A stretch of DNA of 64,000 nt, from assembly GCF_900105595.1 (NCBI RefSeq), contig NZ_LT629784.1, forward strand, positions 2,232,001 through 2,296,000, read 5' to 3'. Origin of the DNA: Stappia sp. ES.058 (GTDB lineage Bacteria; Pseudomonadota; Alphaproteobacteria; Rhizobiales; Stappiaceae). The translations under genes and the position numbers were made by a program. Positions 48,052 through 64,000 of this stretch are shown piece by piece; positions within the stretch are counted from its first letter, which is position 1, and every line of letters starts with the position of its first letter. The notes beneath the pieces are model-generated. The model searched no databases. It was not told where the DNA came from and saw nothing but the letters and a program-made list of their open reading frames with translations.

Positions 48052-48638
48052 CCTTGCCTCCATTTGTTGCCCTTTGGATCGCAAAGAACTTTCAGCGTCG
48101 AAAGTTCCCCCGGCGCAAGGGCTGATGCGCGCCGCGCCTGGCCGGCGGCGCCAGACCGGGTCCCTGCCACGAGAACGCTTCCAGCAACTGGAGGGTCAAC
48201 ACCACCCAATGCGCCCACCGTCCATGCGTTGAAATTGAGCTGTCAGGAAAATCTGGGACGAGTGTGCCGCAAGCGGAGCCGACCGCAGCCAGCGGTCTGA
48301 ACCAAACACCTAACCGAGAGTACTTGATGCCTTGCTCTCATACCCGAAAATCGCTGCGTTCGTGGTCGGAGTTTCGCGATGTAACTTCCCGGCCGGGAGA
48401 CGAAACGAAGACTTAAAAGGCGTCGAAGTTTTCAGGGATCAGAGCAGGCCACGCGGAATTTGGCCGTTTGGTGCTCCTGGTCCAGCCCTTGAACTGTCCC
48501 AGCTTCACGCTCTTTTGCGTCGTTCATCCGACGATCCGTATCCAGATCGGAAGATGAATTTCAGCTTCAATGAAAAATTTCATCTAAAATAAATGTTCAA
48601 GGCAAATCACAGCGTAGAATTATTTTTCGCGAAAGTCT
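48052..48638. other. Intergenic region, 587 bp
   Basis: No supported gene. An 86-codon frame at 48332-48592 lacks a ribosome site and resembles nothing known. The last ~100 bp are markedly AT-rich (AAAATTTCATCTAAAATAAATG), unlike the neighbouring coding DNA, and mark the boundary between the metal gene set and the biosynthetic cluster. It should hold the promoter of the leftward DUF305 operon; I could not define it. Confidence 0.4.
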
Positions 48639-49115
48639 TTAGTCCAGCATACTTTGCACCACATCCACAGATATAGCCGTCTCAGACTTGTAGGTCTCGG
48701 ACACGAAGTGAGTCGTGTAGCGAACGACACTGCCGACATCATCAAAAATCCGGTCGCAAACTTCTTGATACTCAGCCATGTCTCTGAAATGGCCGAAGAG
48801 CACCGCATCGACCTCACCGGTCACTCCCCAGGCGCAAGATATGGATGGCTCCGCACGTATGCATGAGGCCAGTTTTTCCCGATCCGCGCGGGTGTTCTCT
48901 TTCGTTGTCGCCGTAATCACAGCCATGACCGGTCGCCCGAGCCGCGCCGCATCGGCAACATAGACATTTGCTGTCAGAACGCCCGATTCCTGAAGAACGC
49001 GGACACGCCGAAGACAGGTCGACGAAGTGGAATTGACCGTTTCGGCCAGCTCGGCGTGTGTCAGATCGCCTCGCCGCTGAAGAGCCTCCACGATCCGGAT
49101 ATCAAGTGCGTCCAT
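48639..49115 (-). CDS. Lrp/AsnC family transcriptional regulator
   Basis: 158 residues from the ATG at 49115, matching the family size of ~150-160. It opens with MDALDIRIVEALQRRGDLTH, then a helix-turn-helix (ELAETVNSTSSTCLRRVRVL) and a C-terminal RAM domain that would sense an amino acid. It is divergent from the EamA exporter with only 94 bp between, the usual setting for an Lrp-type activator of an amino-acid exporter. It probably controls export, and perhaps the biosynthetic genes to the right. Confidence 0.92.
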   Translation of the reverse strand: MDALDIRIVEALQRRGDLTHAELAETVNSTSSTCLRRVRVLQESGVLTANVYVADAARLGRPVMAVITATTKENTRADREKLASCIRAEPSISCAWGVTGEVDAVLFGHFRDMAEYQEVCDRIFDDVGSVVRYTTHFVSETYKSETAISVDVVQSMLD

Positions 49116-49209
49116 GTCGGTTGCAATATTTCTCCATAATACCTCAGATTTCAACCGTATCCTGCGCGACTTTTCCATAGAGTATTCAGAAATTGGGGAA
49201 ATTTCATAT
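49116..49209. promoter_or_regulatory. Divergent promoter region, Lrp regulator / exporter
   Basis: The 94-bp spacer is AT-rich (TTGCAATATTTCTCCATAATACC near the left end, ATAGAGTATTCAGAAATT near the right), as expected for Lrp-family binding sites, which have loose AT-rich consensus. No single operator can be fixed by eye. Confidence 0.4.
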
Positions 49210-50226
49210 ATGTCGCGCTTTCAGATCGGCCTGTTCTGCTGTCTGTCTTTCGTTTCGCTCGAAGCGTTCCAGGCGGTTTATCTCGGCTCCGTATTCCAGA
49301 ATGTGGATTCCTTCCTGGTGGGAATGTGGGTGTTTGGCATCTCTGTCGCCGGGTGCACCCTTGCAACGGCGATACGAAGACCGATCGAGCTGATTGCGTC
49401 CGTGCGAGCGTGGAGAATTGTTCTTGTCCTGAACCTGTATGCGGCCTTGACGTGGACGACCTATTTCTTCGCGGTGCAGCTTATCGAGCCGGCAGTGGTC
49501 TTTACCGTCTTTTCCGGCATGGTGCCTCTCGGCACAGTCATCGGTGCTTGGACAGGCTTGCCCGAAGCCGCCGGTCCGAAGCGACGGCTCACGCGTTACG
49601 GCAACCTGCTGATCTTGATTTCCATCCTTTTTCTGGCGGCAATCACGACGTTCGGTCTTTCCGGTTTCGTTCGTGGCGGTGCTTTGACGGCCTTGCTAGG
49701 TGTCGGCCTTTCCGCCCTGTCGGGGGCATGCACCGCCTTCGTGATCCTGTATTCGGTTCGCCTCAACCGGAATGGTGTGGGTCCGCTCGCACAGTTCGGT
49801 CTTCGTTTCATCCTTTACACCTTGCTGGCGAGCGCGGCCTTTCTTTGGGGATTGGACGACAAAGGGACTGCCAGCGCACCGGTGGACCTGGCCGTGATCG
49901 TTATGATCGGCCTGCTCGTCATCGCCTTTCCGCTTTACCTGGTCCAGAAAGCCGTGCCGCTCGTTCCGGCATCGACCATTACGGCCATGACCGCACTGGG
50001 GCCGGTCATGGTCTTCGGAATGCAGCTCTTCGACGGACGTGTCGATTATTCGGCTGCGACCCTCGCCGGTTTGATGATCTACATTGCCGGTGCGTTTCTG
50101 GCGGTTTACAGCGCGACGGTCCAATCTGCCGCCCGCCTCGACCCTTCGGGATACGAAGGCAGAATCCGTGACGCGCCGGTTGCGGCGCATTCGCAAACAG
50201 CTGAGGAAAATGCGGATGGCCCGTGA
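49210..50226 (+). CDS. EamA/DMT family exporter
   Basis: 338 residues with about ten hydrophobic segments in two EamA-like halves (for example VFTVFSGMVPLGTVIGAW and ITAMTALGPVMVFGMQL). The ATG at 49210 is preferred over upstream frames because the polar leader does not fit a membrane protein and TTGGGGAAA lies about ten bases before. The C-terminal tail is soluble. Divergent from the Lrp-type regulator and beside the diaminopropionate genes, it is a candidate for product export or self-protection. Confidence 0.87.
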   Translation: MSRFQIGLFCCLSFVSLEAFQAVYLGSVFQNVDSFLVGMWVFGISVAGCTLATAIRRPIELIASVRAWRIVLVLNLYAALTWTTYFFAVQLIEPAVVFTVFSGMVPLGTVIGAWTGLPEAAGPKRRLTRYGNLLILISILFLAAITTFGLSGFVRGGALTALLGVGLSALSGACTAFVILYSVRLNRNGVGPLAQFGLRFILYTLLASAAFLWGLDDKGTASAPVDLAVIVMIGLLVIAFPLYLVQKAVPLVPASTITAMTALGPVMVFGMQLFDGRVDYSAATLAGLMIYIAGAFLAVYSATVQSAARLDPSGYEGRIRDAPVAAHSQTAEENADGP

Positions 50227-50262
50227 CAGACAGGCCATGCCTGGCGGCCGATGAGGATCTGA

Positions 50263-51030
50263 TCATGCGAACGGGCGGTCTTCCCGTTCGGCATGAATCA
50301 CGACACCGCCAACCATTCCATTGCGAATTGTCTCGAGGGTTCCTGCATAAAGCCCGCGGGCATGGTCGTACCAGCCCGGTCCACACACGTCTTCGATCTG
50401 AGAACGCTTTTCATCGATCTGCACCACAAGGTCGGCGTACCAGCGTTCGTATTCTTCATCGATCCGCCGGGCACTGCGAATGCTCCAGCCACCATCTGAA
50501 TACAGGCGGTCAATATCGGACCAGACGAAAGGCGTCCCCAGAAAGGAGATGTCGTTTTCCATCACCGGGGAACGCCAGTATCCCCCCAGGTCAACATAGT
50601 CGAAGACGACAATCTGACCCGAAGACGCCGCGAGTTTTGCAAGCGCTGCCAGCCCCGCGCGCTGATCCGGCAGCGCATGGAAAACATTGAAAAGGACAAT
50701 CAGATCGAAACTGCCGTTCAGGCAATTGACCGCCTCCTCAACACTGCAGGCATGAAATGAAATGTGAGGAAACCTGCGGGTCGCTTCCTCGATCGAACTG
50801 GCCTCGATATCGAAGCCGACGACGTCGCCCCAACCATGCGCCTTCAGATATGCGCCGGTCCCCCCACGTCCGCATCCGGCATCGAGTATTCGGCGTTTTG
50901 GATCCTTGGGAATATCGGCCATCCCGACCTCGATGCCCGCGACGCCGCCCGCATGCGCATAATCGCCGTCCCGCACCAGGGCGAGCAAGCGTTTGCCTTC
51001 ATATGAGTTCATAACAAGCTTCGGCGTCAT
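50263..51030 (-). CDS. Class I SAM-dependent methyltransferase
   Basis: 255 residues. The SAM loop is ILDAGCGRGGTGAYL, followed by the acidic VGFDIEAS and the FDLIVLFNVFHAL motif-IV region. The ATG at 51030 has AGGGAAG six bases upstream and is preferred to the ATG at 51055-51057, which has no ribosome site. It is the last gene of the leftward biosynthetic run and converges with the exporter. A small amino or carboxyl group is a likely target; not determined. Confidence 0.85.
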   Translation of the reverse strand: MTPKLVMNSYEGKRLLALVRDGDYAHAGGVAGIEVGMADIPKDPKRRILDAGCGRGGTGAYLKAHGWGDVVGFDIEASSIEEATRRFPHISFHACSVEEAVNCLNGSFDLIVLFNVFHALPDQRAGLAALAKLAASSGQIVVFDYVDLGGYWRSPVMENDISFLGTPFVWSDIDRLYSDGGWSIRSARRIDEEYERWYADLVVQIDEKRSQIEDVCGPGWYDHARGLYAGTLETIRNGMVGGVVIHAEREDRPFA

Positions 51031-51071
51031 GTGTTCTTCCCTGACTTGAGCGGACATGGGTTCGGTTTCGG

Positions 51072-52109
51072 CTAGGACGGATCGTCCGGACCAAGCAGAT
51101 CGATGAGTATGGCGTTGAGGAATGCGGTGAATGCCGGATTGCGGCCCGGCAGTGCAACGCAATGGCCCCAGTCCGACGCGTAGGGCTTGAGGGTGGCTTT
51201 GCGCATGCCGGCAACCGCTTGCACACTGTCTGCAACCGCGAAAAACAGGTCGGTCGTACAAGGCACGATCACGGCGCGCGCCATGATCGAGGCGAGAGCC
51301 TTGTCGAGGTCGCCCCGGAACTCCGGGGTGTCTGCAATGTCGAAGACGCGCCAGGTCCTGAGCATCGACGCCAGGTCGCCCGGGTGCCAGGCTAGATGAT
51401 CCTGTTCCCAGTCATCCAGCAGGTGCCGGGGAGATGAATAGCCAAGCGACGTGTAGGTTTTTCGAGTAAAGAACTCGCGGGAAAAAGCCCAGCCGGCATA
51501 AACCCGGCCGAACGCCCCAAGGTCTGCGCCTTCCAGGACATCCGTCCTTCCGTCATCGCGCCACACCGGCCCGAGGATGGCGCCCAGGCCGTCGATCTGC
51601 ACCTTCGTATAAGCGGACGTCCTCGCGGTGCCGCAGATCGGCAGGATCGCGTCGACCAAGTCGGGAAACTGCACCGCCCACTGGAAGGCCTGGCAAGCTG
51701 CCATCGACCATCCCATAACGAGGCGCAGCCGAGTTATTCCGAACTCCGACCTGAGCAGCTCCGCTTGGCACTCCACATTGTCCTGCAGGGAAACGACAGG
51801 AAACCCGTCTCCAGAGGCAGATGGCGGGACGTTGCTTGGCGAGGTCGACAGCGAATTGCCGAACATGTTGATCGACACGATAAAGTATCGGTCGGGATCG
51901 AGTGCCGGCATGCTTTCGATGTAACCGGCGCTGCGCCGATGGCACCCGGTGAAGAAAGTCGGAATGAGTATGACATTATCCCGGTTGCCGTTGAGGCGTC
52001 CCCAGGTCTCATAGACGAGCTGGGCATCCGTCAGCAGGTGCCCTGACGCGAGCCGGATATCACCGAGCCTGTAAATCCTGCCCTCAGACATCGCTGATCC
52101 CGTCTGCAC
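51072..52109 (-). CDS. Alpha/beta hydrolase fold acyltransferase, MetX-like
   Basis: 345 residues from a GTG at 52109, which has GAGGGGAG six bases before it. The homoserine O-acetyltransferase layout is clear: nucleophile Ser135 in VMGWSMAACQAFQWA, Asp287 in PCTTDLFF and His316 in DWGHCVALPG. MetX proper has GGSMGGMQ, so this is a diverged member, perhaps acting on another hydroxy-amino acid or as a hydrolase. In this cluster it may acylate a seryl-type hydroxyl to prepare beta-substitution. Confidence 0.82.
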   Translation of the reverse strand: MQTGSAMSEGRIYRLGDIRLASGHLLTDAQLVYETWGRLNGNRDNVILIPTFFTGCHRRSAGYIESMPALDPDRYFIVSINMFGNSLSTSPSNVPPSASGDGFPVVSLQDNVECQAELLRSEFGITRLRLVMGWSMAACQAFQWAVQFPDLVDAILPICGTARTSAYTKVQIDGLGAILGPVWRDDGRTDVLEGADLGAFGRVYAGWAFSREFFTRKTYTSLGYSSPRHLLDDWEQDHLAWHPGDLASMLRTWRVFDIADTPEFRGDLDKALASIMARAVIVPCTTDLFFAVADSVQAVAGMRKATLKPYASDWGHCVALPGRNPAFTAFLNAILIDLLGPDDPS

Positions 52110-52319
52110 AAGGCACTCCCCTCACGAAAACTGCAGCATCCGCATGAAACATGCGGTTCGCCGTGGCCGCAGATCGACTTCCGGGCACTCCCACCGACGC
52201 GTGCGTCAGGATGCGGCAACGAAGTTTTCGCTTTGGCCGGCACATGCGGTGTTCCGATTTGAAAAGATGCTGACCCGGCAGACATCGAAGGAGTGCCGCC
52301 AGGGAGATTTCCGCGGCTT

Positions 52320-54157
52320 TCACAGTTCAATGTGTCTTGGCCGGGAAACATCCGCTGTTGCGGCCGCCCCGACTGCTTCGGATCCCCGGAAACAGCATTT
52401 GACCGCATTGTGGGCATCCCACTGTGCGCGGCCGTACCCCCCGGGCGATGGCACGTAATGGTTGTAGTATGAGGACCCCTCCACTGAAGGACCGAAAATC
52501 CAAAGGTGAGGGTCGACCGAACCATCGGGCCGGATAACCCGACCTCCCGGCGTGACGGCGGGCCCGTCATGCCTATCGGCGGACTCCGAAACCCGTATCA
52601 GGCCGCCTGCCTGCATGCTGGCGAACAATCCGCTGTCGCGACGCGAAACACCGCTGGCCGGGACATGGCCGGCAAAAACATGAGCGGGTCGCACCCGGAG
52701 AGCGTCGCGTCCGGCTACTTTCGGATCCGCGATTTGGATCGTTGCGATCCCCGCGTCGATCAGGCAGGCCAATTCCTCGATCCGTTCGACCTGTGGACCG
52801 GCGACAAGCCGATTGATCATGGGTGCCTTTTCATCGAAGAATCGCCGATGGGACGACGCGCTAAGCAGGCCGCGATCGATGACGCGACGGATCGTCTCGC
52901 GAAGGTCTCGCCAGACTTCCAGGGCCGCTTTGCACGGATCTCGGGAAAGACCTCTGCGGCACGCACGGATATCAGCGCGCAGGAATTCGCGGAACCACTG
53001 TTGATGACCGCTAACGAGGTACTCCGGTGGCGCTGATAGCAGCAGCTCCGCACTCGGATCGAAAGCGTCCCCGCCATTCCGTCGATTGCAAGATGATCCC
53101 CCCGAGCATCCCGCTTCCAAGTCTCGGCAAACGCGAGCGCAACCTTGGGATCCGCCTCCCGTGTCGCACGATATGCGGAAAACATCTCGGCATGAATGAG
53201 CGGTTCCACATGTGCATCGAAGTCGACCCGACCTGCACCGTAGCGCTGTTCAAGCGCATCGAGCGCCTTTTCATTGAAGATCAGGCCGGGCCGGGCATGC
53301 CTGTCCCCACGAAGCATCGGCCGGCCACGATACGGAAGACCGCTGCGTGTAATGAATTCCAGCCGCCCTTCATTTCCGGAGGCAATGTAGTTTATCGTCC
53401 CGTCCCGACGATTTTCGAACTGTCCGCCCCAGAGATCGATGACACCGGCCATCAGGTCCATTGCGGAAAGACCGACCCCCAGGATCTGCACCTCTTCTTT
53501 CTCGCGCACCCGCTGCAGAGCTCGCGATACCGGATATGCAGGAATGACGGCATCGGGCGGTTCGATGCAGTCGCCGGCGTGATCGATACCGTGGCCGGTC
53601 GTGATGAACGTATGATCGACGGACACCGCCGCACCGCCTTCGCTAACCAGTTCGGTTACCTTTTCGCCCGGAGGCCGGCGCAAGCCTATGATCTTCGTCC
53701 GGTGGATCGCGATGTTCATTGAGGGCGGGGCCCGCCGCAATACCTCATCCGTGAACCAGGCGAGGTAATCTCCCAGAATACGACGAGGAAGGAAATCCGC
53801 CGCCTCAACAGGCCTTGGCGGTGTCCCGCCCGGCGCATGATCTTCGGCAATGCATGTGCCGTTCCGTTTGCACCAGTCGAACAGGGATGCCCCATGCCAC
53901 GGGACACCGTCCTCCGCCCCGATGTCGCCGGGAAACATGGTCACCTGGCCGGCCACGGTATTGAGTTTGAGATAGCCCGGTTGAGCCGGCGAGTGGATCC
54001 CGACCCCGGGCTCGTTGCGATCGTACACGAAGACCTTGACCGAACGTTGCCGGTGCTTGCGGGCGAAGGCAACCATTCGCTCCAGAACGATCAGACCCCG
54101 AGGGCCAAATCCGACAATTCCGACGCGCAACTCCGACGGATTGACCGACACTTTCAT
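52320..54157 (-). pseudogene. FAD/NAD(P)-binding protein, frameshifted
   Basis: The first part (ATG at 54157, GGGGAGGGG site) is a dinucleotide-binding flavoprotein of the FAD_NAD_binding_9 type: VGIVGFGPRGLIVLERM, FITTGHG and ILGVGLSAMDLMAG. At GCGGGGACGC (reverse strand; CCCC at 53069-53072) the good coding moves to another frame, which reads DAFDPSAELLLSAP and continues to HLWIFGPSVEGSSYYNHYVPS, a typical flavoprotein end, with a stop at 52320. One extra G restores ~612 residues, a normal length. The next gene upstream overlaps by ATGA. Inactive, or a homopolymer miscall. Confidence 0.82.
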
Positions 54158-55173
54158 CGTGCCCCTCCCCAGCGGGCGGTCTCACCGATGAAGTCGCTGA
54201 CCGTTATCACTCCCTCAGCCTGTCGCGCAAAGCCGAGCACCTCGCGAGCCACCGCCAGATCGAGAATACCCAAACCGAAGGGCGAGAATATTCTCGCTTT
54301 GCCTTCGGGTGGACTGATCCGGCCGTCGATTACATCCGCGATTGTGCCCGCTATGAAACGACGGTGCCCCACTTCACGGGCGGCGAGATCCGGCGAGGTG
54401 CCGGCCTTCAGGCATTGTTCGACATCGTCGACGATGTTCCAGCCGGCCAGGATGAGATCCGGTGCCAAGTCTCTGAGCGAGATGTTGAGGACAACCTGAT
54501 CCGGTCGCAAAAGGTCGACCTGGTCGATGTAGGGACTCGTTGCAGACGTGGCGAGAACCACCAAATCGCAACTGAAACAGCTGGAGTAATCATCAGCCGG
54601 CGTTGCGGACTTGCTGAGTTCTGTCTGAGCATGGTGAACCAAGGCTTCGCAGCTATCCCGATTGATGTCAAAGACGACAATCTCTTCGACAGACCCGATA
54701 CGCTGGCACAGAAGATTAAGAATCGTTCTGGCGATGACCCCGCCACCCACCACGCCGATCCGGCGGTATTTTCTGCCTCTCGGCTGCAGCACCTGCGCCC
54801 CGAGAACGGCGGAAGCCGCCGTCCGCTGGGCGCTGATCCCGGCCGCCTCCAGGAAGGCCAGAGGCAAGCCGGTTCGCGCGTCATTGAGAACCATCACGGC
54901 TGAAGCCCGAGGGACGTTCTGCTCGATATTGTCGGGATAACTCGCGATCCACTTGATTCCGCTGATGGGGGCATCGTCGCGCAGCGCTGCGGGCAAGGCG
55001 ATAATCCGATTGCGCTCTTCGTTAGGAAAGCGCAGAAACTGGCTGCTTGGATTAACGGTTCCACCGTTTGCGTGCAGGCGGTAGGTTTCCGCGACAATGT
55101 CGACCACACGATCGCCCAGCGCGTTCAGCGCACGGACAACCACCGCGCCGGGAATAATGTGAACTTCAGTCAT
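54154..55173 (-). CDS. sbnB: SbnB-like N-(2-amino-2-carboxyethyl)-L-glutamate dehydrogenase (ornithine cyclodeaminase family)
   Basis: 339 residues from the ATG at 55173. Strong similarity by eye to staphylococcal SbnB: RIIALPAALRDDAPISGIKW, ASAVMVLNDARTGLPLAFLE and QRTAASAVLGAQVL, then the NAD loop IGVVGGGVIARTIL. SbnB oxidises the SbnA product to L-2,3-diaminopropionate and 2-oxoglutarate. The longer open frame reaches back into the sbnA-like gene and is a shadow; the two genes overlap by 8 bp. This pair is the strongest functional anchor of the cluster. Confidence 0.88.
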   Translation of the reverse strand: MTEVHIIPGAVVVRALNALGDRVVDIVAETYRLHANGGTVNPSSQFLRFPNEERNRIIALPAALRDDAPISGIKWIASYPDNIEQNVPRASAVMVLNDARTGLPLAFLEAAGISAQRTAASAVLGAQVLQPRGRKYRRIGVVGGGVIARTILNLLCQRIGSVEEIVVFDINRDSCEALVHHAQTELSKSATPADDYSSCFSCDLVVLATSATSPYIDQVDLLRPDQVVLNISLRDLAPDLILAGWNIVDDVEQCLKAGTSPDLAAREVGHRRFIAGTIADVIDGRISPPEGKARIFSPFGLGILDLAVAREVLGFARQAEGVITVSDFIGETARWGGAR

Positions 55174-56194
55174 GGCAAACCTCTGAAATTTTTTTCGGTC
55201 CGAATTGCCGAACCACGACTTGTCCCGCGTCAGGCGGACCAAGCGAGGGAATGAGCGCATCGCTGCCGAAGCGATCCTGCACCCAGTCGTCGTCGTAGAT
55301 GGTATCGAGATACGGCTCGCCCCCGTCCGGAGCGATCGCGACCACGACATCGTCCGGGGAAAAACTCGCCTGGAATGCGCGGATCGCCGCCAGCACGGAC
55401 CCGGTGGACCCGCCGGCGAGGATGCCCTGGCGCCGCGCAAGATATCGGCAGTTCGCAATGGCGACGCTTTCGGGAACGAGTGCAATCGCATACAGACCGG
55501 CCGGGTCGAACAGCGGCGGCTGCCGGCTCGCCCCAAGCCCCGGAATATGGCGCGGTCCGGGAGGGGATCCCAATGTCACCGAGCCGACGCTGTCGACAGC
55601 GACGATCCTGGGCGCCGGTCTGCGTCGGCTCAGCCGCGCGACACAGCCCATCAGCGTGCCTGTCGTGCCAGCACCGATGAATACATAGTCGAGCTTGTCG
55701 AAAGACCGGTCGATCGATAGGCCGGTCGTGTCGCGATGAATGCGCGGATTGGCCTCGTTGGCATATTGATTGATCCAGTGATAGCGCGGATCGCGGTCGA
55801 TCAACAAACGGATGTGGTCGATGCGCGAGCCCAGAAAGCCGCCGTTGGCGTCCGGCGTGGTGACTTCGACGATGGACGCGCCAAAGACCTTCATTCGCCG
55901 GATGTTCTGTCGGCTTGTGTTCGGGTCGACCACACATGTGAAGTCGTAGCCGCGTGCCGCGCAGATCATGCTGACTGCAACGCCGAGATTTCCCGAGGAA
56001 GATTCAATCAGCCGTTTTCCATTCGCGAGCACCCCTTTCGCTTCGCAGTCTTCAATCAAGCCCAGCGCGGTTTTGAACTTGATCGAACCGGCGGGGTTCA
56101 GACTTTCAAGCTTGAGGTAGGGCGCCGGCTGTTCGGGCCAGGGCAGGGCAAGAAAATTCTCGTCGCCCAGGAATGCCGTGAGCCGGTTGATCAT
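55166..56194 (-). CDS. sbnA: SbnA-like N-(2-amino-2-carboxyethyl)-L-glutamate synthase (cysteine synthase family)
   Basis: 342 residues, PLP fold type II. The cofactor lysine is Lys39 in LNPAGSIKFKTAL; the phosphate loop IESSSGNLGVAVSM and the stretches FTCVVDPNTSRQN, DANGGFLGSRI and HWINQYANEANP closely match SbnA rather than CysK. ILAGGSTGSVLAAI closes the active site. SbnA joins O-phospho-L-serine with L-glutamate. With sbnB next door the cell should make L-2,3-diaminopropionate, a building block of metallophores and peptide antibiotics. Confidence 0.88.
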   Translation of the reverse strand: MINRLTAFLGDENFLALPWPEQPAPYLKLESLNPAGSIKFKTALGLIEDCEAKGVLANGKRLIESSSGNLGVAVSMICAARGYDFTCVVDPNTSRQNIRRMKVFGASIVEVTTPDANGGFLGSRIDHIRLLIDRDPRYHWINQYANEANPRIHRDTTGLSIDRSFDKLDYVFIGAGTTGTLMGCVARLSRRRPAPRIVAVDSVGSVTLGSPPGPRHIPGLGASRQPPLFDPAGLYAIALVPESVAIANCRYLARRQGILAGGSTGSVLAAIRAFQASFSPDDVVVAIAPDGGEPYLDTIYDDDWVQDRFGSDALIPSLGPPDAGQVVVRQFGPKKISEVCHD

Positions 56195-57156
56195 GACCGG
56201 GCCTCCTGTGAAAACACCACGCCGGTTGACGCCGCGCCGAGGTTTTTCCAGACGAGTGTCGCTCTCTCGTTTTCCCCGCCTACAAACCGGGCCGGGCCAA
56301 AGACTGTCGGCACGCCGTCAAAACAGGGAGGAACGGATCGGGCGGATTGCGCCGCGCGGCGCAGAGCCAGATTGGCGACGAGCTGAACGGCGGCGATCAC
56401 TTCGTGAAAGTATGTTCCAGGCTCTTCACCGAAGAGATTTCGATGATGCGCAGCAAACGGCCGGGCACCCTCCAGATCTCTTGAATCAGGAACCGCGAGG
56501 GCTTCGACGTCACCCATGGACGTCAGCTCGCGTGTTACCGACGGATCGGCGGCATCGTCGGAAAACAGCACTGGTTCGGCTTCTCCCCCTTGGCGAAAAC
56601 CACGAAGCCAGTCCCGCGATGCTTCCAGCCGCCCGAGAAAAACCGTGGCCATCGGATGCTGAGCCGGGACGATATCGTCTGTCGACACGGCTGCGGTCGC
56701 CAGCAGACGTTCAACCTTCGACTTCAGAGCCAGGTAATGGGGCGACCCATCGGACAGCACACGGATCGTTTGAAATCCTCGCTCGCGAATTCTGTCGAGG
56801 ATGGCCTGTGCAATCGCCCGGTCGTTGGGACAAAGGCGAAACACCCCCTCGGGCAGCGCGCCCAAGTCAATGGTCGCGGCAGGCAGGAACACCGGGATGC
56901 CGGCGGCGACATAGAGGTGGAGCGCGCCGACGACTGCATCCGATCCGAAGGGCCCGATCAGGGCATCGATGTCATGGCCGATCAACTGCCGCGCCGCCTG
57001 CTCCGCGCCGTTGGCGGTCGCGCCGTCGTCGACCCGGTCGAACGCCAGTCGCCCGGCGCCGGGCACCTTGTCCCGAGCAACGGCGAGTGCCCTTTCGAGC
57101 GTGCGGGCGTGCGCTGTTGCTTGAGGATCGAAAAGCGCGCTGATCCCGACCTTCAT
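56191..57156 (-). CDS. Periplasmic-binding-fold protein without signal peptide (LivJ-like)
   Basis: 321 residues. The sequence runs as a type-1 periplasmic binding fold (Peripla_BP_6 type): MKVGISALFDPQ, GHDIDALIGPFGSDAV, AAGIPVFLPAATIDLG, and later FHEVIAAVQLVANLAL. It starts directly with the first beta strand, so it should remain in the cytoplasm, and no transporter permease or ATPase is near. The ATG at 57156 overlaps the upstream oxidase stop, and its own stop overlaps the SbnA start. Perhaps an amino-acid-binding or carrier-type subunit of the pathway; function unknown. Confidence 0.75.
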   Translation of the reverse strand: MKVGISALFDPQATAHARTLERALAVARDKVPGAGRLAFDRVDDGATANGAEQAARQLIGHDIDALIGPFGSDAVVGALHLYVAAGIPVFLPAATIDLGALPEGVFRLCPNDRAIAQAILDRIRERGFQTIRVLSDGSPHYLALKSKVERLLATAAVSTDDIVPAQHPMATVFLGRLEASRDWLRGFRQGGEAEPVLFSDDAADPSVTRELTSMGDVEALAVPDSRDLEGARPFAAHHRNLFGEEPGTYFHEVIAAVQLVANLALRRAAQSARSVPPCFDGVPTVFGPARFVGGENERATLVWKNLGAASTGVVFSQEARS

Positions 57157-58307
57157 GCCGCCCCCTGCGTTGCGTCCAGCTCCACCGGCATCCGTCGGGC
57201 GAAGCGGTCGGGTTTCAGGGCACGGGCGAACCAGTCAGCCGTTGCGTCCATAGGTTTGTCGGTCAGCGCCTCATGGACGAGTTGAGCCACCACCAGTCCG
57301 GCTCCGGGCGCCAGCTTGTATCCGATGCCGGCAAACCCGGTCGCCACGAACACACGCCGCTGCCCCAGCCGACCAATGACCGGTCTGTCGTCGGCCGAAT
57401 AAGCGTCATGGCCTTCAACGATATCGAAAGCGGTCGCCAGTCGCGGGGTCCCGGCAATTTCAGCAAATTTCGCACAGCCGTCGGCGAGAATCGCTTCGGC
57501 AGGCCATGTCAGGCCTTCGACCGTCTCCGCTTCCGATCGGCACCCGGCTCCCACGCCGATAAGCCGACCGCCGAGAGGCACTAGATAGGAACCGGCGCGA
57601 AAGTCGATCACCGGACAGGGCAACTGCTGTTGTTCGACGACCATCCGCACCTGCGGAACCGACCGGGCCCGTATCGGGACATCGCGGACAATGCCAGCCG
57701 TCCAGGCGCCACCCGCGACGACGATGTAGCGGGAGCGAAGATCGCCAAAGGCGAACCGAAGCGTCACTTCCGACGCGCCCTCTTCGATCCGGAGGGGGCC
57801 GGCATTCTCCACAACGGTGATATCCAGACCGGTCTTGAACACCACGGCGCGGGCACTCGAGCGTGCATTGCCGTACCCGCCCTCGGGCTCCCATATCACA
57901 GGGCCCTGCCCGTCAGGGGTGATAAAACCGGTTGCCTCCGCCGCCTGCCGGCGGCTCACGAGACGGAGCCCCCCGGACGTCAGTTCGTCGACCTCAACGG
58001 CTGAATCGGGAACAAGATAGACACCCGTTCGCGCAATGGTCGACGCATAGGCCCGGCCGACCCGGGATCGGGCCATGTGTTTCATCGACATGCGCGTGAA
58101 TTCCCGGATCACGGGATCACGATCATACGTGCGCAGGATCCCTCCGGACCGGGCAGTTGCGCCGGCGCTCCCGATACAGCTGCGGTCAACCAATGCGACC
58201 GTATGGCCGAGATTGGCAATTTCGGCAGCGGCCGCCGCTCCGATCACGCCTCCCCCTATGACGAGGGCGTCAAAGACTGCGCTGCAGTTCCCGGCCATCG
58301 CGCTCAC
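57153..58307 (-). CDS. FAD-dependent oxidoreductase, D-amino-acid oxidase (DAO) family
   Basis: 384 residues. The FAD loop is LVIGGGVIGAAAAAEIANLG near residue 16, with SAGATARSGGILRTYD as the family's second motif; the C-terminus has DRPVIGRLGQRRVFVATGFAGIG. Enzymes of this kind oxidise glycine-, sarcosine- or D-amino-acid-type amines. The start is a GTG at 58307 that overlaps the MetRS-like stop (GTGA); an ATG three codons in (58298) is the alternative. In this cluster it may oxidise an amino-acid precursor or an aminoacyl intermediate. Confidence 0.87.
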   Translation of the reverse strand: MSAMAGNCSAVFDALVIGGGVIGAAAAAEIANLGHTVALVDRSCIGSAGATARSGGILRTYDRDPVIREFTRMSMKHMARSRVGRAYASTIARTGVYLVPDSAVEVDELTSGGLRLVSRRQAAEATGFITPDGQGPVIWEPEGGYGNARSSARAVVFKTGLDITVVENAGPLRIEEGASEVTLRFAFGDLRSRYIVVAGGAWTAGIVRDVPIRARSVPQVRMVVEQQQLPCPVIDFRAGSYLVPLGGRLIGVGAGCRSEAETVEGLTWPAEAILADGCAKFAEIAGTPRLATAFDIVEGHDAYSADDRPVIGRLGQRRVFVATGFAGIGYKLAPGAGLVVAQLVHEALTDKPMDATADWFARALKPDRFARRMPVELDATQGAA

Positions 58308-59809
58308 GCTTCCATAAAAGTGGACTGGCGTTTCTGCGGCACCGGATCGTCCTCGGCACCATCCAGTGCGGTCTTTATTCGCTGGGACAGCTCAGGGTGC
58401 AGCGCCGCGCCCAGTTCACCGACCGTTTCGACCAGATCCGCAACCGGCAGGCCCCGGCTTGCGCGGGCATCGGCCATCGCAACAAGATCGAGAACGATCG
58501 CCGCGAGCGCCTGCATTGAGAAGCTGTCGATGTCGGTTGCACGTTTCCAACGGCGCCGTGCACTGTCGAGAAGCGCAGTGTCGTCGGCGCCGATCGGCGA
58601 CCGGAAGCCGGTTTCCCGGCGCTCGGTCCTTGCGAGATCGATCAGGCGATCAATGGCCCCTTGCCAGACCGTCCGGTACCAGCTCTGGAACACCGCAACC
58701 TCAAAGTCGGTTTCCCTTTCCTCCGGCGACACGGAAGCGAGGAACAATCGGACGGCATCCCGGTCATAGTCGACAGCCAGATCGCGCGCCCAGATTGTGT
58801 GCCCTCTGCTGGTCGACAGGTTCTTTCCGTTCAGCTTCATGAATTGGTTCGGATAGAATTTCGGCATCAGGGAAAGACCGGGAACCATCGACAGCAGAGA
58901 CGGGTACACAACCATGTGACTGTAAGCACAATCGTACCCGAGGAACTCGACCAGGCGTGCGTCCCGATCCGCCCAAAAAGCGGTCGCGAGCGCCCCATCC
59001 CCGACAACGTCTTCGGCATATTCCGCAACAGCTGCGATGTAACCAGCCAGACCGAGAAACCAGGTGTGAAGCCGGCAGGCCTCGTTCCCGCCGAGATCGA
59101 GGCCGGCTTCCCCGGGGCGCGTAATCGCCCAGAGTCTGGGCCCGCGTTCCAGCACCTCATTCGCCCATTCGGCCATTGGCGGTCGGATCGGCTGGCTGCT
59201 GTAGAGTCCACTCAAGAAGCCTGCAAAGCGCTCGACATCGAGGAATTCGCGCTCCACCTCCGGCCAGTCGAACTTTCCGCCGCAAAGCTTGCAGACGAAA
59301 TCCTCCATGAGTGCGGCCTCGGGCGGATAGGCACATTGCTCGCACTGGCTGGCATCGGAATCAGAGCCGCAATAGTTGCAGTTGCCGCGGCCAAAGGCCT
59401 CATAGCCCCAGGTCCCGCAGGAAGGACACCAGGGCTCGCACGATGTCCGTTTGACGACAGCTCCCGCTTCGACCGCCGCCGCGTAGACCTGCGCTGCCGC
59501 GCCATGAAAGTGCCGGTTCTCGTAGCTCGACAACCAGTGGCTCATCTCGATGCCCAATGCAGCGAGAGTGCCCTTTATCCGTTCGGTGTTTTCGTTGGCG
59601 ATCTGAATGCGATCGACGCCCAGTTCAAGTTCCTTGCGGTGCATGTAGGACTGGTAGTCGTCGGAATAGGACACGAGAATGCAATCGTGTCCTTTCGCTC
59701 GCTGCACCCGCGTAAACACATCCGCCGACAGGAAAGGTCCGGCGATATGCCCGATATGCAAGTCGCCGTTGGGTGTCGGAGGCGTGACGGAAACGATCAG
59801 TCTAGGCAT
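58304..59809 (-). CDS. Methionyl-tRNA-synthetase-like protein, shortened
   Basis: 501 residues, class I aminoacyl-tRNA synthetase of MetRS type. HIGH is intact (His18-His21 in GDLHIGHIAGP); the KMSKS position reads KNLSTSR (329-335). A cysteine-rich insert carries CPSC (128-131), CNYC (144-147), CEQC (156-159) and CKLC (173-176), the knuckle domain of MetRS. The C-terminal anticodon-binding part is short and diverged, and no tRNA-binding EMAP domain follows. It probably adenylates an amino acid; whether it acts on tRNA or as an amide ligase (as CysRS-like MshC does) or as a resistant MetRS is open. Confidence 0.85.
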   Translation of the reverse strand: MPRLIVSVTPPTPNGDLHIGHIAGPFLSADVFTRVQRAKGHDCILVSYSDDYQSYMHRKELELGVDRIQIANENTERIKGTLAALGIEMSHWLSSYENRHFHGAAAQVYAAAVEAGAVVKRTSCEPWCPSCGTWGYEAFGRGNCNYCGSDSDASQCEQCAYPPEAALMEDFVCKLCGGKFDWPEVEREFLDVERFAGFLSGLYSSQPIRPPMAEWANEVLERGPRLWAITRPGEAGLDLGGNEACRLHTWFLGLAGYIAAVAEYAEDVVGDGALATAFWADRDARLVEFLGYDCAYSHMVVYPSLLSMVPGLSLMPKFYPNQFMKLNGKNLSTSRGHTIWARDLAVDYDRDAVRLFLASVSPEERETDFEVAVFQSWYRTVWQGAIDRLIDLARTERRETGFRSPIGADDTALLDSARRRWKRATDIDSFSMQALAAIVLDLVAMADARASRGLPVADLVETVGELGAALHPELSQRIKTALDGAEDDPVPQKRQSTFMEA

Positions 59810-60194
59810 GACACGCTTCCGGGTTCTTCTTCATTTCCTCCAGATATTCCCGGGCGTGCGGCTCATCCCACCAAACCACGTAGAAATGAAAGTCCTCATC
59901 CGTATTATTCTCGACGTAGTGATCGACATGCTTGGGAATTGCAGCGATGTCGCCCTGACCGAATTCATGGGATTTGTCATCAACAACCAGCGTCGCGGAG
60001 CCCTTGATTGCGATGAAGATTTCCTGATCGATCTGAGTGTGCGAGTCGCTGACCGTGCCCGGCCGAACGACACACCAAGCACCACTGAACGGCATCGGGT
60101 AGTTCTCCCATGGCCGCAACCGGGATCCGTCCAGTCCGTATTCGTGCTTAAGACCGGACCAATCCATGGATCGAAAGATCGTGAAGTCAGCCAT
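59802..60194 (-). CDS. Cupin-domain protein
   Basis: 130 residues from the ATG at 60194. Cupin motif 1 is recognisable as SDSHTQIDQEIFIAIKGSATLVV split over two strands, and motif 2 as GDIAAIPKHVDHYVEN. The putative metal ligands are His and Glu in HTQIDQE and His in HVDHYVEN. It overlaps the MetRS-like start by 8 bp. Could be an isomerase, a dioxygenase or a ligand sensor; small single-domain cupins are too diverse to name further. Confidence 0.82.
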   Translation of the reverse strand: MADFTIFRSMDWSGLKHEYGLDGSRLRPWENYPMPFSGAWCVVRPGTVSDSHTQIDQEIFIAIKGSATLVVDDKSHEFGQGDIAAIPKHVDHYVENNTDEDFHFYVVWWDEPHAREYLEEMKKNPEACHA

Positions 60195-60322
60195 TGTTGT
60201 CACCTTCCCACTGATACGACGTGATATTTTCCGACGCCGGCCAACCAGCGCCGCCGGCTTGCGCCCGCCTGCAAGTGTCTTGATGAAAACCCGCAGGCAC
60301 ACCGGTCGGGCCTGACCGGTCG

Positions 60323-60742
60323 CTAGACAAAGTCCTCCCGTTGATAGGACTCGAGATCCGCGTATTTGATGTAGATCTCCTCGTCCGCCGCGATGTCTCT
60401 GGTGGTCACCGCCAGAACGCGAGGAAAGGGTTCGCCCGACTTCCAGTCGAGCCGGCAGTTCTCCTCGTTCGAGTGATTGATGATCGAGGACGCCCCGAAA
60501 GCGAGTTGCAGGCCTCGCTCGCCCTGCTCCTTCAATAGCGGGTCACGATCGGCAAACAGATGATTGCGCAGAGATGTGGCGCAAACGACCTGCGCATCGT
60601 GAGAGCCGATCCTGCGACAAAGATCCTGCAGGATGACCGTCCCCGCCTCGATCTGGCGCCGCGCAAACACTCCGACCCCCCGGCCCGGCGAAGACCGGTA
60701 GCTGCAATACCGATTGACGACCATTTCCACCCTGCCTGGCAT
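60323..60742 (-). CDS. Small SET-domain protein
   Basis: 139 residues from the ATG at 60742 (AAGGA seven bases before). It is almost only a SET domain: GRGVGVFARRQIEAGTVI at the start, SIINHSNEENCRLDW as the NHS knot motif and ADEEIYIKYAD as the terminal Tyr motif. SET proteins transfer methyl groups to lysine side chains. A bacterial stand-alone SET gene at the head of a biosynthetic operon is uncommon; it might methylate a small amine or a carrier protein. Confidence 0.78.
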   Translation of the reverse strand: MPGRVEMVVNRYCSYRSSPGRGVGVFARRQIEAGTVILQDLCRRIGSHDAQVVCATSLRNHLFADRDPLLKEQGERGLQLAFGASSIINHSNEENCRLDWKSGEPFPRVLAVTTRDIAADEEIYIKYADLESYQREDFV

Positions 60743-61344
60743 TGCAATCCTTGGTGAACTTTGCAAATTAATACACCAATAAGTATGCATACCCCGCGAG
60801 CCCGGCGCAAGAAACTTCTATTTATAATTGCAAAATAATAATCCACACCTTTCACGTGCTTTGGAGATTGTCGTAGCGGCACGCTCCACCCGGCCACAGT
60901 CAAGCCTGCGATGAATGCGGCTTTTTGATGCGCCGCTCCCGACATTGAGTATGAGCAAACACAAACACTGTCTTTTTGCTCTTCATCGACATCAGCGCAC
61001 CCGATGACGTGATCCCGTTAGGTCGCGTCGAAACGCCGGACAAACCCGTCGGCAACATCTCGAGTGAGACTGAAGCGGCCATCGACACCTGCCCTGACGC
61101 AGGCCGTTTTAATGAGAGACCCTGACATGTCGCACCATCGGCTCGAGCGACGCCTGGCGAATGTTCGCGTGAACGTCCGCATCTTCATTCGACACCTCCC
61201 CGTCCCGATCGCGATCTGGAGCGGAGCTCCCCCTTTTTCAAGACACTCAGGCTACAGGTTGAAAAAAACAACTTTTAATAATCATATTAGACTCTATGCA
61301 TTTTATAGGTGTAGTATCCAAAATCGGACGGTACAGCACAGGAG
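60743..61344. other. Divergent intergenic region of the biosynthetic cluster, 602 bp
   Basis: Separates the leftward run (SET gene first) from the rightward SHMT-like gene. It is AT-rich at both ends, with a GTATGCATAC palindrome at 60783-60792 and ATTGCAAT/ATTGCAAA elements near 60741 and 60829. The central part has normal GC. A 53-codon open stretch from about 60955 (reading PDDVIPLGRVETPDKPVG) looks protein-like but has no start codon or ribosome site and follows a stop directly; it may be a gene scar. Confidence 0.45.
61259..61287 (+). promoter_or_regulatory. Possible promoter of the SHMT-like gene
   Basis: TTGAAA at 61259-61264 and TCATAT at 61282-61287 are spaced by 17 bp, inside a strongly AT-rich stretch, 57 bp before the start codon. 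The -10 match is poor, so this is a suggestion only. Confidence 0.3.
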
Positions 61345-62544
61345 ATGACATTGGTCATGAGAAATGTCGCAATCGTCGCAAAACAAGAAATTGGAAATAT
61401 TGCCAATACTCTTGTTGATGAAGCTGCAAACTCATTGCGTGAATGTACAAACCTCGTCGCAGCCACAAATCGCCCATCCGACTACGTCTTGAATTGCATG
61501 AGACAGGCAACCGACTCTGTTCAGCTCGAAGGGCACTGCGGCAAGCGTTTTCATGAGGGGGCAGGTGCCTATGACGAGGTCGAACGCTACTGCATCAAGA
61601 GCGCTTCCGAATTGTTTGGCGCAACGCACGCGTCCGTGCAGGCATGGCGATGCACGAACGGGTTGCTGAGCGTCACCCGGGCACTTGCCAAACCTGGTGA
61701 AAAGGTTCTCGGTCTTGAGTGTGCCAGCGGCGGATATTATGCAACATCGACCAAGGCGCACCTGATCGGAAAACTATACGATGTTGCGACGTACACGGTG
61801 TCGGAAACCACCCTTCGGCTCGACTACGACCTGATCAGGGACCGTGCTCGAAAAGAACGCCCCAGGATCATTTTCGCGGGCGACACAAGCTACTCGCGTG
61901 ACTGGAATTGGGCGGCAATGCGCGACATTGCCGATGAGGTCGGCGCATACCTTGTCGCCGACGTCTCGCAGGTTGCCGGACTGATTGTCGGCAACGCCTT
62001 TTCGTCCCCGGTTCAGTTTGCCGACGTCACGCTTTTTGCAACCTACAAAACGTTTCGCGGACCGCACGGTTGCATTGTCCTGACCAATTCCGCTGAGATA
62101 TGGAAGGCAATCCGGAGCCGCCTCTACCCGGAACTTCAAGGGAGCGTGGTGGCCTCAACGCTTGCCGGCCTTGCCGCCACACTGGAAGAAGCAGGCACCC
62201 TCGAATATGCCGAATACCAGCATCGAACAGTTGACCTGAGCCGGCGGTTGGCTAAGGGCGTTGCCGCTCAGGGTGTGGAGATCGTGACTGGCGGGACGGA
62301 CAATCACGGGTTCATTGCCGTCGTTCCGGCCGAATGCCGCGCCAGTGCCGCCGACGCATGCGGGATGCTTTCGCAACAAGGCATCCTGACCAACAAGACG
62401 CCAATCCCCTTCGATCGCCGGTCACTGCTTGAGTCAAGCGGCGTTCGGATCGGCGCGTCTTTTGTCGCGAATCTCGAGATCAGCAACGACGAGATCGACA
62501 GCATTGCGGGCTGCATTGGGAGAACGATCAGGTCTCTTCATTGA
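61345..62544 (+). CDS. Serine-hydroxymethyltransferase-like PLP enzyme (fold type I)
   Basis: 399 residues, SHMT family by order of motifs: LEGHCGKRFHEGAGAYDEVE, then the PLP lysine Lys235 in LFATYKTFRGPHGC. The cofactor Asp206 is kept in VADVSQVAGL. Two usual SHMT residues differ: the PLP-stacking His (QPHSGSQAN in SHMT) is Trp101 in QAWRCTNGL, and the His of DMAHVAG is Gln209. A transaldolase or other aldol-type amino-acid synthesis is more likely than housekeeping SHMT. GGAG abuts the ATG at 61345, so the in-frame ATG at 61357 may be the real start. Confidence 0.82.
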   Translation: MTLVMRNVAIVAKQEIGNIANTLVDEAANSLRECTNLVAATNRPSDYVLNCMRQATDSVQLEGHCGKRFHEGAGAYDEVERYCIKSASELFGATHASVQAWRCTNGLLSVTRALAKPGEKVLGLECASGGYYATSTKAHLIGKLYDVATYTVSETTLRLDYDLIRDRARKERPRIIFAGDTSYSRDWNWAAMRDIADEVGAYLVADVSQVAGLIVGNAFSSPVQFADVTLFATYKTFRGPHGCIVLTNSAEIWKAIRSRLYPELQGSVVASTLAGLAATLEEAGTLEYAEYQHRTVDLSRRLAKGVAAQGVEIVTGGTDNHGFIAVVPAECRASAADACGMLSQQGILTNKTPIPFDRRSLLESSGVRIGASFVANLEISNDEIDSIAGCIGRTIRSLH

Positions 62545-62572
62545 TCACCATGCGGATATTATTGGTGCGATA

Positions 62573-64000
62573 ATGAAATTGAAAAATATCTTGGTCTGGT
62601 CAATACCGCGAAGCCGATCTACTGCGTTCGAGCGCTCGGTAATGCAGCGCCACGATCTGACAGTTTTGCATGAGACCCTGTCGGCGCCTTACCTCGAATT
62701 GCACTCCAGAAGGCGCGCCAAAAAAATTGCGACGGCCAGACAGGAACAGGATTTGCCATCGGGCGAAGAGGATTATGTTGCAGCTTTGAACGCCTTGGCG
62801 GTTACGTCAAAGGGCCGTGTGACCCTGTCGAAGGAACTGATTTGCTTCTTCGATACCGCACAGATCGAGGATGCCTGGCTTCGGCATTTCGCTCACGTCT
62901 TTCTGGTGCGCGATCCGGCAGCGGCATTGCGTTCATTGTGGCGCGTGTCATGCGCGGGACCAACCACCTATTATGATCCGAACGAGGTCGACTACGCGCG
63001 CATGCGCAACGTCTACAGCCGCGTCGTCGATGCCTGCGGAATGAACTCTGCCATGGTGCTTGAGGCGGATGACGACCTGCTCGCCGACACCGAAAACGCG
63101 TTGCGACGGTTCTGTGAATTCGCAGGCCTGGATTTCTGCCCGGCTATGCTCGAATGGAAAGCAGAAGACGTCCAGCCCTGGAACGTCTGGAAGGGCTGGC
63201 ACGATGACGCCGCGAAATCGTCCGGTTTCCAGGCGCCTACGCATGAAACGCCCACGATACCCGAGAGCATTGCGGCCGACATCGCCGAACGCGCCGTTGA
63301 AGCGGCACCTGTCTACCAGGCATTCTCCCTGGCGGCGGCAAGAGAACGGCACAAATTTTCCGGAAGCGCCGTGAAACCGTTGCTGCCGTTGCCCGACGCG
63401 CAGGCGCAACTCCTTTTTCCGACCGATATTAAGGCCGGAATTGACGACCTTGTCACCTATGCTGGCGGATCTTCGAACGCGTTCGAGGTTATCGGACTGG
63501 ATTGCGCGCGACTGGAAGGCCTTGGCGCCACCGACGCAGGGGAAGCTGCGCGCATCCTGGATCGCCCGTTGCTCTTGCCTGCGGGAGCGGAGGCGGCACA
63601 AAAAGCGGTTGCGAAGGGTCTTGGCCTCAAGCCCGCTCTCCTGCCGCCATTGTCGGCCGCGCCCGGCACGCAACGGATTGCGGAGTTGCGGCAGGAAGCC
63701 GTCGCGGCCGTTGAGGCGGCCGTCGCGGAAACCACGGACCACGTCTTGAAGGCGAACGCGAAAACACGGATCGGGCCATGTCCCGCCGATTTCGCTGTTG
63801 CCATGTCCTCGGTTGCCAAGGCACATCCGGATCTCTGCGTCCTGACGGATGGATCGGCAAGCTACACAGCCTCCCAATACGCCGCGGAACTGGTCCGCGT
63901 CGGAAACATTCTCCGGCAGACGGTAGGCGGTCGCGCACTTGAGCCGCGCTGGATCGTGATCTTTGCAACGCGCAGCGCGGAAACAGTCCTTGCGATGAGC
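62573..64000 (+). CDS. Sulfotransferase domain fused to probable adenylation domain (partial, runs off window)
   Basis: 476 codons are open to the window end. The N-terminal ~260 residues are a sulfotransferase: 5' loop IPRSRSTAFERSV (11-23), LHETLSAPY, and 3' motif VFLVRDPAAALRSL (109-122). A helical Ala-rich linker (~265-400) follows. From residue ~404, PADFAVAMSSVAKAHPDLCV, LTDGSASYTASQYAAELVR and IVIFATRSAETVLAMS have the order and spacing of the first 70 residues of an AMP-binding (NRPS-type) adenylation domain. It lies 28 bp after the SHMT-like gene, without a clear ribosome site. The rest of the protein should be to the right. Confidence 0.78.
   Translation, partial: MKLKNILVWSIPRSRSTAFERSVMQRHDLTVLHETLSAPYLELHSRRRAKKIATARQEQDLPSGEEDYVAALNALAVTSKGRVTLSKELICFFDTAQIEDAWLRHFAHVFLVRDPAAALRSLWRVSCAGPTTYYDPNEVDYARMRNVYSRVVDACGMNSAMVLEADDDLLADTENALRRFCEFAGLDFCPAMLEWKAEDVQPWNVWKGWHDDAAKSSGFQAPTHETPTIPESIAADIAERAVEAAPVYQAFSLAAARERHKFSGSAVKPLLPLPDAQAQLLFPTDIKAGIDDLVTYAGGSSNAFEVIGLDCARLEGLGATDAGEAARILDRPLLLPAGAEAAQKAVAKGLGLKPALLPPLSAAPGTQRIAELRQEAVAAVEAAVAETTDHVLKANAKTRIGPCPADFAVAMSSVAKAHPDLCVLTDGSASYTASQYAAELVRVGNILRQTVGGRALEPRWIVIFATRSAETVLAMS

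Follow-up and report, generated by a model that had tools for sequence, protein, structure and literature searches.

Organization of the locus

The DNA stretch analyzed here (hereafter, the window) comprises 64,000 nucleotides from Stappia sp. ES.058 and spans bases 2,232,001-2,296,000 of its genome, a single contig 4.63 Mb long. Towards its right end lies a gene cluster that an earlier note, made from the sequence alone, had described as a biosynthetic cluster built around L-2,3-diaminopropionate (Dap), with a Dap-containing small peptide, an amino acid antimetabolite, or a metallophore as its inferred product. Open reading frame (ORF) and profile searches located every gene named in that note, on the strand that it had given. 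The core of the cluster, at 52320-60194 on the minus strand, reads from right to left as follows:

59802-60194, minus strand: standalone cupin (Pfam Cupin_2, 9.4e-15)
58304-59809, minus strand: methionyl-tRNA synthetase (MetRS)-like aminoacyl-adenylating ligase
57153-58307, minus strand: DAO-type flavin adenine dinucleotide (FAD) oxidase (Pfam DAO, 4.3e-30)
56191-57156, minus strand: leaderless amino-acid-binding-fold protein (Peripla_BP_6, 2.4e-10)
55166-56194, minus strand: SbnA-like pyridoxal phosphate enzyme (TIGR03945, 374.3 bits)
54154-55173, minus strand: SbnB-like dehydrogenase (TIGR03944, 375.3 bits)
52320-54157, minus strand: NAD_binding_9 flavoprotein, split between ORFs 52817-54157 and 52320-53120 (PF13454, 1.5e-28, in the N-terminal ORF)

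Neighboring core genes overlap by 8 bp (cupin/MetRS-like and, given the inferred SbnB start at 55173, SbnA/SbnB) or by 4 bp (MetRS-like/DAO, DAO/binding-fold, binding-fold/SbnA, and SbnB/flavoprotein), as in a translationally coupled operon. Start positions of the cupin (the ATG of MADFTIF), of SbnB, and of the flanking MetX-like and methyltransferase genes are inferred ones. The flavoprotein gene, listed in the earlier note as an FAD/NAD(P)-binding protein, is divided over two ORFs.

Predicted supply of diaminopropionate

In Staphylococcus aureus, SbnA and SbnB together produce Dap from O-phosphoserine and glutamate. The SbnA-like and SbnB-like proteins of the window pass the equivalog cut-offs of TIGR03945 (349.95 bits) and TIGR03944 (326.9 bits), respectively, and among PDB entries the former is closest to S. 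aureus SbnA (216.8 bits), followed by CmnB (172.0 bits), with 163.2 bits for the best chain named cysteine synthase. Since both proteins exceed these curated NCBIfam thresholds, the Dap reading of the cluster holds at the level of sequence profiles. The possibility raised in the earlier note that the two might group with ordinary CysK and ornithine cyclodeaminase is opposed by their equivalog scores, which are scores and not a tree. Its proposal of a Dap-based small-molecule cluster is retained, and no prior description of such a cluster was found in the accessible literature.

A ligase and a cupin resembling a split hydrazine synthetase

The best solved match of the MetRS-like ligase, both by sequence and by predicted fold, is the hydrazine-synthetase domain of PyrN, which outranks every true MetRS among the solved matches listed. 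The protein also passes NF008859, a model named methionine--tRNA ligase (584.7 bits, cut-off 553), and its predicted structure retains a C-terminal helical part, so that it may still bind tRNA. Its identity as a spare or housekeeping methionyl-tRNA synthetase was nonetheless rejected, the PyrN domain being nearer to it than true MetRS.

The adjoining cupin has plu4264 (4mv2, 1.7e-36) as its best solved relative and shows the motif H-x-Q-x3-E, with the next H located 34 residues on. At the positions of D63, H65, E69, and H103 of RHS1 it would thus present H, Q, E, and H, as assigned by spacing and not by alignment to RHS1. Upon alignment of 69 cupins, that of the window included, the first H was found in 68 and both the E and the last H in all of them. 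The Q is present in 54, namely in the window and in 53 loci of relatives that also carry SbnA and SbnB (Dap-type loci, described below), being replaced by N or H in the remaining 15. Because the same Q occurs in these 53 other loci, decay was rejected as its cause and the Q is, within this alignment, a mark of the Dap type.

Together, the MetRS-like ligase and its adjoining cupin resemble a hydrazine synthetase divided over two genes. The earlier note had correctly reported a MetRS-like gene but had not recognized this pairing. Two genomes of the same genus show a MetRS-like match inside a 733-aa frame; in the one read in detail, from a sister species (L087; 17-3144), a 683-aa cupin–MetRS fusion directly follows a DAO gene. 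This fusion is about 28% identical to the MetRS-like protein of the window and has the appearance of a canonical fused hydrazine synthetase.

Conserved gene order and exchange of the diamine module

To collect relatives, an alignment of 27 MetRS-like proteins was run against species-representative genomes. Of the 365 stretches confirmed, only the 80 best were retained, so that the proportions given here lean to Dap-type loci. Flanks reached at most 10 kb, beyond which more distant genes would be missed, and the 80 loci were searched by tblastn with the window proteins, their ORFs being clustered. SbnA/SbnB genes were found beside the MetRS/cupin pair in 53 of these 80 loci, of which 49 come from Pseudomonas, two from Burkholderia, and two from Paraburkholderia. 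A search for this neighborhood in other genomes had been suggested in the earlier note. Its statement that no described pathway with this gene combination is known stands for the accessible literature, but the core itself is not unique to this genome.

The conserved order is cupin–MetRS–DAO–binding-fold–N-monooxygenase–SbnA–SbnB–flavoprotein, the DAO-type oxidase occupying the same position as in the window. Such an order exceeds chance and recurs across genera. Eight apparent variants without a binding-fold or DAO label were ORF-calling artefacts, as tblastn finds the genes in question there. The flavoprotein is present in 50 of the 53 Dap-type loci; two of the others (L007 and L018) stop at a contig end, and the third, from Pseudomonas syringae pv. 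cilantro (L035), keeps SbnA without any match to SbnB or the flavoprotein and is apparently truncated.

Among the 27 loci without SbnA and SbnB, a class III transaminase occurs in 19 (17 of them with an N-monooxygenase) and the flavoprotein in none, while the transaminase is absent from all 53 Dap-type loci. The four transaminases scanned out of these 19 all pass the cut-off of a model named diaminobutyrate--2-oxoglutarate transaminase. A tree of the N-monooxygenases, holding 42 of 78 rows after scripted thinning and carrying a warning on long branches or make-up, separates two branches, one mostly beside the transaminase (fork 100/98) and the other after the binding-fold gene (100/99). The latter also contains four Sphingomonas rows; three further rows, one from Rhizobium and two from Vibrio, belong to neither branch. 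Both branches are represented in two loci of Photorhabdus and one of Serratia. In a MetRS tree reduced in the same way to 19 of 54 Dap-type rows (window included), and with the same kind of warning, the MetRS of these two-branch loci forms the sister group (100/97) of a clade (100/98) that unites the window with every Dap-type row sampled and also takes in one Erwinia locus lacking SbnA and SbnB and nine database proteins whose context is unchecked. The simplest reading of these sequence patterns is that SbnA, SbnB, and the flavoprotein took the place of the transaminase and its N-hydroxylase, which would make the flavoprotein the likely Dap hydroxylase.

Photorhabdus loci such as L054 display cupin–MetRS–DAO with a diaminobutyrate (DABA)-type transaminase and two N-monooxygenases. 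The solved Photorhabdus cupin plu4264, the best match of the window cupin, may be an N–N forming cupin.

The flavoprotein as an aspartate N-hydroxylase relative

An intact relative of the flavoprotein from Pseudomonas graminis (L010) has the L-aspartate N-hydroxylase of Streptomyces sp. V2 (8cp2, 5.1e-45; PMC10404684) as its best solved match. Residues N62, R266, R409, and R412 are kept in the 50 relatives and in the window pieces, and R13 and R416 in 48 of the 50. Likewise, N62, R266, R409, R412, and R416 are invariant in 117 homologues (the best 120 of 980, minus three short ones). For R276, two alignments disagree on the window residue (R or A), and no claim is made. At position 413, where the 8cp2 enzyme has N, 32 of the 50 relatives carry D, 16 carry E, and 2 carry N, while the window has E; N413E is reported to abolish aspartate hydroxylation (PMC10404684). 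Therefore, despite its sequence relation to aspartate N-hydroxylases of the CreE/FzmM type and the fitting core residues, the flavoprotein was not filed as an aspartate hydroxylase, since the aspartate-binding N413 is replaced in the window and in 48 of the 50 relatives. Nitrite formation by this protein was likewise discarded, given the change at N413 and that no lyase of the aspartase/fumarase type, the family to which CreD belongs, appeared among the cluster proteins scanned. An acidic residue at 413 would rather suit a substrate in which an amino group replaces the side-chain carboxylate of aspartate.

Proposed pathway and competing explanations

With a probability that we put at about 60%, the core encodes a split hydrazine-synthetase pathway fed by Dap and leading to a product with an N–N bond. 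Such a compound becomes the best reading because the MetRS-like protein and the cupin form a putative hydrazine synthetase pair; the Dap-based small molecule of the earlier note is kept, and its product is revised in this sense. SbnA and SbnB would supply Dap from O-phosphoserine and glutamate, and the flavoprotein would N-hydroxylate it, probably at N3. By homology, the MetRS-like protein would then adenylate an amino acid and esterify the hydroxylamine with it, and the cupin would turn the ester into an N–N bond by rearrangement, a mechanism demonstrated for PyrN and RHS1 (PMC8664883). The DAO-type oxidase might next oxidize or cleave the hydrazine, perhaps giving an amino acid of the 3-hydrazinoalanine type, by analogy with Apy10, which acts on a diaminobutyrate–alanine conjugate (PMC11705231). 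Finally, an exporter of the EamA or LysE type would move the product out; EamA genes occur to the left and to the right of the cluster, the latter past the end of the window. More speculatively, the leaderless binding-fold protein, with an AlphaFold model of pLDDT 87.9 and LivJ/LivK-type binding proteins as best Foldseek matches (a likeness of fold only), may act as a carrier or chaperone holding a labile intermediate.

Several observations weigh against this pathway. The RHS1 structure is not among the 21 PDB matches of the cupin at E 0.001, and, considering that RHS1 H65A loses zinc (PMC8664883), a Q at that position implies that zinc binding by the cupin must differ or fail. The acidic residue at 413 is general, being D in 107 and E in 3 of the 117 flavoprotein homologues, whose context is unchecked, and may not be specific to Dap clusters. 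In addition, the flavoprotein gene is split in the window, and an N-monooxygenase family found in 53 of 53 other Dap-type loci, which could itself provide the Dap hydroxylase, is absent from the window cluster. The last two features make the activity of the cluster copy in this strain uncertain.

They also suggest that the cluster may be what is left, in inactive form, of a Dap–hydrazine pathway once acquired, a possible explanation that is compatible with the proposed pathway operating in the relatives. The cluster does look acquired: searches of 384 other genomes of the class and 396 of the order (overlapping samples) gave no match to its MetRS-like protein with E <= 1e-60, and its best match in 13 other genomes of the genus (5.6e-43, 28% identity) is the different, fused protein described above. 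As for the flavoprotein, all 50 relatives match one frame to about 53171 and the other from about 53030 (medians), so the frame changes between about 53170 and 53030 and the pathway may be off in this genome. On the contrary, the other core ORFs are open across the compared regions, and a mononucleotide run lies within the stretch of the frame change, which makes an assembly error possible.

A second, rather doubtful explanation keeps the N–N pathway but assigns Dap hydroxylation to the PF13434 N-monooxygenase, with the flavoprotein acting on the hydrazine at a later step; in that case the window would be devoid of a Dap hydroxylase. The constant presence of this family in the other Dap-type loci (five of five proteins scanned are PF13434, the remainder being assigned by clustering) favors it, as does the usual partnership of hydrazine synthetases with lysine/ornithine-type monooxygenases (PMC11705231). 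However, the three Photorhabdus and Serratia loci contain both the after-binding-fold branch and another N-monooxygenase encoded next to the DABA-type transaminase, and for this reason the former is probably not the diamine hydroxylase. Moreover, the only full-length PF13434 match of the window genome lies near 1.31 Mb, next to an IucA/IucC siderophore gene. That region (1.304-1.322 Mb) combines a PF13434 hydroxylase with an IucA/IucC-FhuF gene as a separate siderophore-type locus.

Alternatively, the MetRS-like protein and the cupin could link Dap to an amino acid through an amide or ester without forming an N–N bond, which we judge unlikely. The MetRS-like domain of PyrN yields, without cupin activity, an ester that becomes an amide (PMC8664883), and the ligand set of the cupin differs from that of RHS1. 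Nonetheless, each of the 53 other Dap-type loci has a cupin called next to its MetRS-like gene, the Glu at the E69 position is invariant, and the same genus holds the cupin–MetRS fusion next to a DAO gene.

A Dap-containing metallophore is highly improbable, for although SbnA and SbnB are known from staphyloferrin B biosynthesis (PMC3179956), neither the siderophore synthetases of that pathway nor any IucA/IucC-type synthetase was found among the cluster proteins scanned, the IucA/IucC gene sits at 1.31 Mb, the conserved core is that of a hydrazine synthetase, and transporters near the Dap loci, as labeled by Pfam from representatives, are of the LysE (29/53) or EamA (15/53) type, with neither in 9.

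Relation to known systems

The proposed pathway shares its ligase and cupin, here encoded by adjacent genes, with the MetRS/cupin hydrazine synthetases PyrN, RHS1 with its standalone MetRS-like partner, Spb40, and Tri28, and an accompanying DAO-type oxidase with the clusters of Spb39 and Tri27 (PMC11705231). Standalone MetRS-like/cupin pairs are already described (PMC8664883). The window differs in obtaining its diamine from SbnA and SbnB, in a proposed hydroxylase of the aspartate N-hydroxylase and not the lysine/ornithine type, in the Q that replaces the H65 ligand of RHS1, and in a conserved leaderless binding-fold protein.

In the actinopyridazinone pathway (Apy9 synthetase, Apy10 oxidase, and Apy11 hydroxylase) a short diamine is likewise N-hydroxylated, coupled to an amino acid, and oxidized (PMC11705231), but DABA and alanine are used where Dap would be here, and the hydroxylase family differs, the comparison being made from the published description. 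By gene content, the DABA-type loci (e.g., L054, L064, and L071) are nearer to that pathway. L-alanosine, with Dap and a diazeniumdiolate, also proceeds through a proposed N3-hydroxy-Dap intermediate, whereas its hydroxylase is acyl-CoA-dehydrogenase-like, the source of its distal nitrogen is debated (nitrite or NO), and a cupin–AraC protein of unsettled role, AlnA, is mentioned but no MetRS-like partner is named (PMC11705231). The hydroxylamine sources named in the same review are lysine, ornithine, DABA, putrescine, and DAPN, and not Dap; Por11 of Pseudomonas orientalis is listed as well (PMC11705231). Diazo compounds derived from hydrazinoacetate are treated elsewhere (PMC10445470 and PMC13061610). 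No description of a Dap-fed MetRS/cupin pathway, nor of one in Pseudomonas syringae, was found in the accessible literature, and subscription papers or supplements might hold one.

Genes flanking the conserved core

Outside the core, the cluster region displays the following features:

48639-49178, minus strand: Lrp/AsnC regulator (HTH_24, 4.3e-13; AsnC_trans_reg, 2.2e-11)
49114-50226, plus strand: EamA-type exporter candidate (EamA, 5.1e-6; 27.3 bits, just under the curated cut-off of 28.2)
50263-51057, minus strand: S-adenosylmethionine-dependent methyltransferase (Methyltransf_23, 1.2e-14)
51072-52091, minus strand: MetX-like alpha/beta-hydrolase-fold protein (NF005757, 346.1 bits, cut-off 332)
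60323-60790, minus strand: SET-domain protein (SET, 8.3e-13)
61345-62544, plus strand: serine hydroxymethyltransferase (SHMT)-like enzyme of the divergent arm (SHMT, 3.9e-72)
62573-64000, plus strand, continuing beyond the window: start of a 1367-aa sulfotransferase-A-T-reductase synthetase

An additional ORF at 52031-52570 is probably spurious, as it overlaps with other genes and matches no Pfam family. Left of the cluster, the window carries a full-length RND efflux pump (ACR_tran; 38998-42162, plus strand) and a DUF305 protein (47446-48084, minus strand).

The earlier note had joined the SHMT and sulfotransferase arm and the MetX-like, methyltransferase, and SET genes to the core in one set. 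This grouping is not borne out by the relatives: these genes, including the sulfotransferase part, gave no tblastn match (1e-5) in Dap-type loci, and the MetX-like, methyltransferase, SET, and SHMT genes none in any of the 80 loci. The MetX-like acyltransferase is present as a gene, but it passes PRK07581 (346.1 against 332) and not MetX (120.3 against 331). Extension to the right, which the note had advised, showed that the sulfotransferase fusion runs on as a sulfotransferase-A-T-reductase (L003:3574-7677), followed by genes for an alcohol dehydrogenase, another DAO, a flavodoxin-like protein, and a SABATH-type methyltransferase, and by an EamA gene. Weak matches of the dehydrogenase (23-29%) in some Dap-type loci are read as unrelated zinc dehydrogenases. 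Four other homologues of the sulfotransferase-A-T-reductase are listed, one named from Pseudomonas sp. WS 5021, and none was found at E 1e-80 in 86 other genomes of the family; an empty search at 1e-60 in 15 Dap-type genomes had no positive control and carries no weight. Pathway membership of the SHMT and sulfotransferase arm is doubtful, and the sulfotransferase-A-T-reductase may belong to a cluster of its own or have been added locally.

Implications

If the proposed pathway is correct, an N–N forming route has been overlooked in a much-studied group, 49 of the 53 Dap-type loci being in Pseudomonas records, and it would have stayed hidden because its key enzyme is annotated as a methionine--tRNA ligase (database names; NF008859). 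A broader and quite tentative proposal is that plant-associated Pseudomonas make undescribed and widespread N–N amino acids from Dap, such as 3-hydrazinoalanine or a cyclized aza-analogue of cycloserine, with an aspartate N-hydroxylase relative re-purposed as a Dap N-hydroxylase and the window as a distant acquired copy with extra tailoring genes. The comparison of loci also suggests that the diamine supply, DABA or Dap, is exchanged as a module around a fixed N–N forming machine, and the proposed pathway would provide a candidate substrate for an orphan flavoprotein family and a possible function for the solved cupin plu4264.

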